Shown one piece after another: positions 581-2,639 of a DNA stretch of 41,580 nt (position 1 is the stretch's first letter; the number at the start of each line of letters is the position of its first letter). The notes under the pieces are model-generated. The model had not been told where the DNA came from and ran no database searches. It was given only the letters and a program-made list of their open reading frames with translations. The position numbers were made by a program, and so were the translations under genes. This stretch comes from a virus, in the IMG/VR virus record IMGVR_UViG_3300047471_000628, positions 1 to 41,580 of that record. One strand, written 5' to 3'.

Positions 581-904
581 TTAGATGCGTCGTCCGTCGT
601 CGGTCCTGAACACGCGGTTGTCGCGCTCATCGAGCCACGCGTTGAGCGCCTTCTGGTCCTTGGTAATCCCCAGCTTCTGGAGCTGCTGCCAGATGACCAT
701 GGGAATACGCGCGACATGGGTGATGCCGTCCGGGTTCGGCCGGTGCTTGTCGAAGTTGGACGCCAGTTGCTTCGCGCTCTCGACAATGGGACGGGTGTTC
801 TGCGAGGTGATGATGACCGGAAGCCCGGTTTCCGCATCGGTCACGATCTCGGTTGACCGCTGCGTTACCGGGTTCCAGGACTCAAAGAACGGTCTGTCGG
901 TCAT
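581..904 (-). CDS. Hypothetical protein downstream of capsid gene
   Basis: A 107-residue soluble protein (SWNPVTQRSTEIVTDAETG at its N-terminus) with no signal peptide or membrane segment. I do not recognise a family with a known function. Its ATG overlaps the HNH stop (ATGA), and the next gene follows after 11 bases with its own AGGAGA site. Its place just after the capsid gene suggests a head protein; the HNH gene appears inserted between the two. Confidence 0.8.
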   Translation of the reverse strand: MTDRPFFESWNPVTQRSTEIVTDAETGLPVIITSQNTRPIVESAKQLASNFDKHRPNPDGITHVARIPMVIWQQLQKLGITKDQKALNAWLDERDNRVFRTDDGRRI

Positions 905-1341
905 AAGCTGCGCTTCTGTCGGTGGTATCGAGCGGATCGTCCGTTCATGCATTGCCGGCACGATCGCATGCCGTTGAACGTCATGGTGTTCTCTGGCGTG
1001 TATTCGTGCCCGTGTGGACAATGGGTCTTCAGCGCGTTTACGGCAGAACCGCCCTTGAAGCGGCCCTTCACGCGCATATCGGTGACATTGTCCAACTGCG
1101 TCCCGACGAAGAGATGATCGGGATTGCAGCAGGCCGGCACATCGCATTTATGCAGAACCCTCAACCCGGTTGGGATGGGGCCATTGGCCTCGGCCCATGC
1201 CAGGCGATGAACCTTTAGGATCTTGCCCTTCCGGTTCACCATCCCATAGCCACAACCGTCCACCGATCCCTCCCAGAGCCAGCAACCGGAGTTGGGCTCT
1301 GGGATTAGACGATCTTGCCAAGGGATCGATGTGACTGTCAT
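901..1341 (-). CDS. HNH homing endonuclease next to the capsid intron
   Basis: A 146-residue HNH_3-type endonuclease. Visible motif: VHRLAW (His45), then LHKCD (His64, Cys66), then CCNPDHLFVGT (Cys71, Cys72, Asn73, His76), the usual HNH core of phage homing nucleases. A second possible zinc site near the C-terminus is formed by Cys108, His110, His112, Cys128 and Cys131. It starts 10 bases after the stop of capsid exon 2 and ends in an ATGA overlap with the following gene. It lies outside the intron, as in free-standing nucleases that cooperate with a neighbouring intron. It probably cuts intronless or nuclease-free alleles of the region. The target is unknown. Confidence 0.9.
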   Translation of the reverse strand: MTVTSIPWQDRLIPEPNSGCWLWEGSVDGCGYGMVNRKGKILKVHRLAWAEANGPIPTGLRVLHKCDVPACCNPDHLFVGTQLDNVTDMRVKGRFKGGSAVNALKTHCPHGHEYTPENTMTFNGMRSCRQCMNGRSARYHRQKRSL

Positions 1342-1351
1342 TGCATGTTCG

Positions 1352-2639
1352 TTATTGGTTCAAATCGAAAATCGTGGCATGTGCTTTGGGGGCTGTGGGA
1401 CGAATGCAGCCCTCGAACACAACGCCACCTTGCGAGTTGTCGCCGGTTTGCGCATCCTGATTGTTCATCGGAGTTCGCTACTCTCCAACCGCCCTTGCGG
1501 GCTGCTGCATGTCTCCATGCAGAGCAGACTATCTCATCACCTGCCGCAGCAGGGCTGGGCGCTTCGCTTCGCTTGAAGCTACGGGGTTGCCCCCTAGTCG
1601 TTACACCTTCCCCTTGCGGGGCTTGGCTCGGTATTACGCACAGCTTTCCTGTTTGCGCCTTCACCGAATTCACCCAGTTTTCGACAGCAATCACTTGCTG
1701 AAGGACCTAAGCCGCTACTAGCGAACGAATGGCGTTGTCGTTCGCCGCAATGCGGCGCGAGTCTTGCTGAATCATGTCACGCTCTGGCAACGGTGCCATC
1801 TCGACATAGTCCGTAGATACAAGCAGGATTTGATGAGCGGGACAGAACCGATCCGGTGCCAACTGCAGCGTACCGAAGTTGGTGCGGTACACGTCCACCG
1901 CGCCCTGGATGGTCATCTCCCCGGTTGGTGACGCCTGGACGATGTTCTGGGCGACGATCGGATTGCCGGTCCCACCCTGCGACAATGTTGCGAAATAGTT
2001 CTTAATATTCCCCGACATGATCGCCAATGTCGGATTACCCCCGGCCTGCCAGCACTGCTGCACGGAGGTGTTGACCACGGCGAGGGTGAGGTCGAACGTG
2101 GTGCCAACGGTGCCTGCGTTGGAGCCGTCACCGATGGGCATGACGCCTGCGCCGGCACCGCGTGCCCCGAAGTTGGTGTAGCAGGGCAGGCCGCTCATGT
2201 GCCTCGGGTCGGTGATGGTGCGCACGAGTGGCGAGGTGACGGCCAATTCGAGGTCGCGTTTCACCTCCATGCCGCGCAGGATCATATTGCGGTTGTACTC
2301 GTCCTCGCCCCCGACCACGTCCACGACACGGAGCGTGTTGGAGACGCCGACTGTGCGGGCCAGCAACTGGCAGACATTGTTGAGCCGCACCGGCTTGATG
2401 ACCGCTTGCATAACGGCGGTGAAGCCTTCGGGCTGCGCGTTGTCTGCTGCCGGATTGAGTTCCTGCACGATCCACTCGGTCAGGACTTGCTTGGAGCCTA
2501 CTCGCGAACACGATGAGACGAGCGGTGTCTCGTCGGGATCGATGCGATAGATGATATCCGCGAGGTCTTCGCGGACGCCAACAGCTGCAGTCTCGACATA
2601 TGTGCCTGAGGGTGCAGCTCCCATTGCGGGAACGGCCAT
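1352..2639 (-). CDS. Major capsid protein, SU10/DUF5309 type, split by a group I intron
   Basis: Exon 1 is 2639-1760 and exon 2 is 1452-1352, joining in frame to 326 residues. Family features include an N-terminus ending VREDLADIIYRIDPDETPL, GMEVKRDLELAV in the middle, QAGGNPTLAIMSG, and APDRFCPAHQILLVSTDYVEMAPL near the end. Exon 1 read alone runs into the intron and stops at 1707, giving a 310-residue form that lacks the family's ending. Exon 2 restores it: QTGDNSQGGVVFEG and PKAHATIFDL correspond to the usual AKTGDS and EYTLxxxNEAAHGVxxDL ending of DUF5309 proteins. The spacing from the YVEMAPLP strand to TGD also fits only when the intron is removed. The ATG follows GGAG at a normal distance. 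This is the main HK97-fold shell subunit. The exact splice bases are inferred. Confidence 0.9.
1453..1759 (-). ncRNA. Group I intron (subgroup IA-like) in the capsid gene
   Basis: A 307-nt intron read on the minus strand. Paired elements seen: P2 1700-1685 (CAGCAA/TTGCTG); P3 CTGGG 1677-1673 with CCCAG 1559-1555; P4 TCGGT 1667-1663 with ACCGA 1632-1628; P5 CGCA/TGCG 1657-1637; P6a CCCC-GCAA-GGGG 1621-1610; P7 GACTA 1599-1595 with TAGTC 1531-1527; P7.1 and P7.2 hairpins 1594-1566; P8 CCTGC-TGCG-GCAGG 1553-1540; P9 CTGCATG-GAGA-CATGCAG 1522-1505. Conserved strings: Q-like TACCGAGCC, R-like GTAACGACTAG and S-like GAGATAGTCTGC. The exon before it ends in T (GACT) and the intron ends in G. A GGTC guide at about 1707-1704 could pair with GACT as P1. 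P7.1 and P7.2 point to subgroup IA. Confidence 0.92.

Follow-up and report, generated by a model that had tools for sequence, protein, structure and literature searches.

What becomes of a major capsid protein when a ribosome reaches the intron in its gene before that intron has been removed? The question is raised by IMG/VR record IMGVR_UViG_3300047471_000628, whose 41,580 bases (the window) carry a capsid gene on the minus strand with an intron close to its 3' end. Bacterial ribosomes are able to enter an intron before splicing, and in this gene they would meet an open frame whose ending has the form of a tmRNA (ssrA) tag. Judged from comparative sequence analysis, it is quite likely that this capsid-gene intron of a probably alphaproteobacterial phage carries its own fail-safe degron, the xAA part of which recurs in many phage introns. 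We also lean toward the broader reading that a cis-encoded degron imitating the host tmRNA tag is a common feature of phage group I introns and provides quality control at the protein level.

The interrupted gene is recognized by an SU10_MCP domain (PF17236, E 1e-52) in a 310-residue ORF (2639-1707, minus strand), where the match covers residues 19 to 293. The original prediction held that exon 1 alone lacks the conserved capsid ending; the Pfam match indeed stops at residue 293, and TGDNSQGG...PKAHATIFDL, the ending that is missing, is found in downstream sequence. The group I covariance model, proposed at the time as a check, places the element above its curated cut-off (RF00028, 67 bits against a gathering score of 50, E 5e-15), and this is the sole RNA in the window at an Rfam curated threshold. 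An unconstrained MFE fold contains P1 (GACU/GGUC), P2 and most core helices, and P1, P2 and the core helices are backed by both the Rfam alignment and the fold. The 5' splice site is marked by a U1760.G1707 pair, and the guide sequence lies just before the P2 hairpin. No homing endonuclease ORF was found inside the 304-nt intron.

The borders are fixed by natural empty-site alleles, which reach up to 99% protein identity. The interruption is no chance event: among 80 capsid relatives in IMG/VR, 72 are uninterrupted, 7 have an intron here and 1 is ended by a contig edge. Most of the 72 continuous relatives read QQD-YAQ-TGDNSQGG, and joining T1760 to A1455 gives GAC TAT GCG CAA ACC (D-Y-A-Q-T); the intron is therefore 1759-1456. 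For the borders proposed earlier (1759-1453, 307 nt), the 5' end stands, whereas the 3' end is 3 nt off when compared with the intronless relatives: a border at 1453 was rejected because its product, QQD-S-QTGDN, is one codon short and lacks the Tyr-Ala of the empty-site alleles. Once this border is corrected, the expectation that splicing restores the capsid C-terminus is confirmed, the junction being identical to that of the intronless relatives in a spliced protein of 327 residues. The covariance model, the empty-site alleles and the rejoined C-terminus together give firm support to the interruption of this SU10-type major capsid gene, close to its 3' end, by a group I intron with self-splicing predicted (Table 1). 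As an intron it is unremarkable; what is new is the tag.

Table 1. Features of the interrupted capsid gene and its intron (positions in the window).
Feature	Position	Strand	Description	Evidence
Exon 1, SU10_MCP major capsid gene	1760..2639	-	880 nt, ends ...CAAGAC-T, phase 1	Pfam, intronless relatives
Exon 2	1352..1455	-	AT-GCG-CAA-ACC-GGC..., TAA at end	
Group I intron	1456..1759	-	304 nt, last base G1456	RF00028, empty-site alleles, alignment of intron copies
Stretch aligned to Rfam group I model	1505..1738	-	model 1-253	
Read-through tag AANDNAIRSLVAA	1710..1748	-	P1 loop, in frame with exon 1	Translation, tmRNA tag comparison, variants
UAG stop, read-through frame	1707..1709	-	its G is the first guide-sequence base	Sequence, fold
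Internal guide sequence GGUC	1704..1707	-	pairs with exon end GACU (1763-1760), forming P1	MFE fold, window and six variants
P2 hairpin CAGCAA-GUGA-UUGCUG	1685..1700	-		Fold

Read-through past exon 1 adds SRRI-AANDNAIRSLVAA and then UAG. The resulting 310-residue product keeps 293 of the 327 residues, lacks the conserved C-terminal 34 and ends directly in the tag. An ORF of this length with the wrong C-terminus had been foreseen and is present, but its reading as a mere annotation artefact does not hold, since the tail resembles a tmRNA tag and is apparently under selection. Comparison with ARAGORN tags reveals the ssrA form, an upstream AANDN combined with a C-terminal hydrophobic-Ala-Ala, and alphaproteobacterial tmRNA tags follow the pattern AANDN...[LIV]AA. 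Real tmRNA genes retrieved with related patterns have, by ARAGORN, the tags ANDNNKAPVAVAA, ANDNEALALAA, ANDNMYALAA and ANDNEFALAA, and one tag-bearing locus (L244, ANDNFAPQDMRLAA) is an alphaproteobacterial tmRNA by Rfam. No tmRNA gene was found in the 41,580-nt window, and the tag is intron-encoded; it resembles a tmRNA tag but is no tmRNA product. Several of the isolated phages with the best capsid matches infect Rhizobium, Bradyrhizobium or Sinorhizobium, and the best match of a second window protein is likewise a Rhizobium phage. With rhizobial phages among the nearest matches, the host of the window phage is probably an alphaproteobacterium. Alphaproteobacterial-type tmRNA genes also occur on three viral-class contigs (L244, L257, L279), where they may be phage-borne or part of host sequence.

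ClpX recognizes the C-terminal xAA of ssrA tags, whose upstream portion is bound by SspB-type adaptors. Under the proposed mechanism, successful splicing would yield the 327-residue capsid protein, while a ribosome translating exon 1 before splicing would enter the P1 loop, add the tail ending in AANDNAIRSLVAA and halt at the UAG within the internal guide sequence, ahead of the catalytic core. The tail may then act like an ssrA tag, with AANDN as adaptor site and [LIV]AA as ClpX site, and the truncated, tagged capsid protein would be degraded rather than poison head assembly.

Related introns in the capsid family retain this arrangement at a second position. In five loci (L003, L004, L010, L011, L013), the same intron lies 11 nt farther on (CAG ACU/GGA GAC, the slash marking the splice site), also after GACU, and its tails read AVNDNAIRSLAA and AANDNASHSIAA. 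These sister introns enter the gene in phase 0, the window intron in phase 1. The distance from splice site to AACGAC is 12 nt in the sister introns against 17 nt in the window intron, and the same tag frame is therefore restored despite the different insertion phase. In all folded intron copies (7/7), the tag codons form the P1 extension. L003 and L010 differ by an AAC-to-AAU change in the ANDN arm, synonymous at the protein level and accompanied by a matching pairing change in the opposite arm.

SU10-type (DUF5309) capsid genes are a group I intron hot spot (L203, which is Phage C72C1; L163, L376, L446, L530, L105, L144, L461). Beyond the window site, there are at least two more insertion sites, after GRAKETAL and after the ADIYV stretch, and some genes hold more than one intron. 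The capsid gene of C72C1 is annotated as two separate head proteins. The introns of C72C1 and of IMG/VR contigs with such genes share gene kind and intron kind with the window; unlike it, they occupy other insertion sites, and the AA-stop tail is present in some and absent in others.

Searching for ANDN...AA-stop with the group I motif GGTGAA after it recovered two more intron loci, alongside true tmRNA genes and ordinary genes. One (L262/L268) has the tail ANDNDASISFAA and an RF00028 score of 54.7 bits; in the other (L255), with the tail ANDNREVVAFAA, Rfam gives no intron match and nhmmer finds the core in two pieces flanking an insert. Both interrupt Phage_capsid_3 genes, a capsid family unrelated to that of the window. 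In L268 the splice site is again GACU/AU, and exon 2 goes on with DNQLGISAG. The ANDN-type introns have the guide sequence and P1 layout in common, and their tags, few in number, are probably related by descent. Most tag-pattern matches on contigs of IMG/VR and GTDB belong to true tmRNA genes or else to ordinary genes, and the GTDB contig scan by tag pattern yielded no additional clear intron of the window type. A family of 309-residue ORFs ending in ANDNLAAAIKKYAA (L241 and others) was rejected as an intron tail, with no Rfam intron at the ORF end. ORFs of ~260-400 residues in L241, L245, L247, L251, L261, L275, L320 and L369 have the ssrA-like ending AANDN(L/F)xAA(I/V)KKYAA-stop or close variants; conserved GC-rich non-coding sequence lies 3' of them, and tRNA genes are nearby in L241 and L251. 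In L220 and L233, an intron with a window-type P2 hairpin occurs in a large phage (near 1651 of L220); the ORF upstream of it ends AVAQGGAPLAA-stop, and the same records hold more group I matches.

The frequency of AA-stop endings was assessed in a tag-blind survey of IMG/VR introns that share a few core patterns, chosen independently of the tail among the matches listed. Introns were confirmed by an iterated nhmmer profile, and the longest ORF entering each was taken. Close duplicates were removed, as were all loci that had been retrieved through tag or capsid similarity, though related introns may remain. Among the matches listed, 21 of 137 exon-frame tails in phage group I introns have AA before the stop; for out-of-frame stops in the same stretches the figure is 1 of 1059 (Fisher p 8e-20), and for ORFs of at least 150 codons on the same contigs it is 23 of 1569 (p 9e-13). 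With harder removal of relatives and stops restricted to the near intron region, the exon-frame counts are 19/104 and 14/95 (p 5e-18 and 3e-13, matches listed). At the nucleotide level, the exon frame accounts for 21 occurrences of GCNGCN-stop among these matches, with a single one elsewhere. The residue preceding AA is most commonly L (8 of the 21 tails listed). Most survey introns (about 85% of the matches listed) have no AA-stop tail, and none was seen on the annotated ORFs adjoining the intron core in about ten named-phage introns (PAP02, AD45-P1, 2050HW, PT1-4, KIL1, RCIP0089, Vibrio 1.232.O, phiS, C72C1, RHph_N3_13).

The 21 tagged introns listed lie for the most part in SU10 capsids (6/21), further capsid families and tape-measure genes; none of the interrupted genes has a polymerase or reductase match. 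Capsid genes are found among the 90 untagged introns too, along with 9 cases of DNA polymerase A and several of ribonucleotide reductase or HNH domains. As descriptive counts, this contrast fits the idea that truncated structural proteins, as potential assembly poisons, are worth destroying. For one tape-measure gene (L127), an uninterrupted homologue exists in Listeria phage B025, and the comparison locates the tail DSPVVKKFAA within the intron.

The AA-stop tails could be a by-product of RNA structure: GC-rich P1/P2 arms (GCNGC) next to a GUAA loop, or to a guide sequence that begins with UAG, would read Ala-Ala-stop by accident, and the peptide would be without function. Several tails are in fact encoded by P1/P2 arms that adjoin a GUAA loop (GCUGC-GUAA-GCAGC, for example), and the tag codons of the window are base-paired, so RNA structure may supply raw material for AA tails. 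However, structure is blind to the exon frame, which holds 21 of the 22 GCNGCN-stops among the matches listed; the in-frame excess points to selection on the peptide. The by-product account also fails to explain ANDN, or a frame preserved across two insertion phases, and we regard it as unlikely. In many introns (L405, L512, L156, L425 and L397 among them), a short hairpin carries the in-frame stop UAA in its GUAA loop and the Ala codons in its 5' arm. That the 310-residue read-through protein is instead a functional isoform, such as a minor capsid variant, would agree with its 293 retained residues and the open intron frame; the loss of the conserved C-terminal 34 residues, and the fact that tails across unrelated genes have only the tag-like end in common, make this very improbable. 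A neutral relic of a tmRNA gene that once hosted the intron, or of a recombining fragment, is given equally little weight. ANDN...AA-UAG-GUCC is common to the intron and some tmRNA genes, with the qualification that GGUC was in the search pattern; against a relic, the stretch of DNA from ANDN to AA differs strongly, yet frame and tag persist, ANDN-less tags recur in many unrelated introns, and no alignable tmRNA sequence past the tag was seen by eye.

A different account takes the adjacent HNH gene as the main point of the locus, forming a collaborative homing pair with the intron. This free-standing HNH_3 gene (901-1341, minus strand) starts only 10 nt past the capsid stop. Among the capsid relatives, though, the two elements are independently distributed: L002, L003, L004, L010 and L020 have the intron and no HNH gene there (3.6 kb of downstream sequence), whereas L012, L014, L060, L061 and L065 are intronless yet carry an HNH gene at the same or a nearby place. 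Linkage of HNH gene and intron was rejected on this distribution, and the pairing, which would in any case leave the tag unexplained, is a most improbable account of the locus.

The fail-safe degron reading can be compared with several known systems. With known introns of phage protein genes (T4-like, SPO1, Twort, and terL and pol of Shewanella phage KASIA), the window intron shares the self-splicing fold and core, the U at the 5' splice site, the G at the intron end and a spliced reading frame; it differs from them in that its P1 loop encodes a tmRNA-like tail and its host gene is the major capsid gene. The papers found mention no tag in those known introns. With ssrA tagging it shares the C-terminal AANDN...[LIV]AA tail and presumed ClpXP proteolysis, but here the intron itself encodes the tail in cis, and ordinary translation up to a stop appends it, with no trans-translation. 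Yeast HAC1 follows the same logic: its unspliced mRNA gives a protein that carries an intron-encoded C-terminal degron and is removed (PMC5114014, PMC6456296). There too an intron supplies the degron as a fail-safe, although the HAC1 system is eukaryotic, Ire1-spliced and ubiquitin-dependent, and has no homology to the window intron. The openly licensed PMC literature yielded no account of a group I intron bearing a degradation tag, and similar read-through endings in many phage introns seem to be undescribed so far.

The degron claim is directly testable by a reporter fusion ending in SRRIAANDNAIRSLVAA, and AA-stop tails on truncated structural genes offer a signature for unannotated introns. 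The finding bears on how introns persist in genes whose truncated product should be harmful, and it would link a self-splicing RNA to tag-dependent proteolysis. It also implies that unspliced RNA is translated often enough for counter-selection. If the reading is true, the intron degron would be for bacteria what the HAC1 fail-safe is for yeast, having evolved repeatedly and, in the window lineage, being fitted to the host group's own tag sequence, and it would make intron carriage tolerable in assembly-critical genes.
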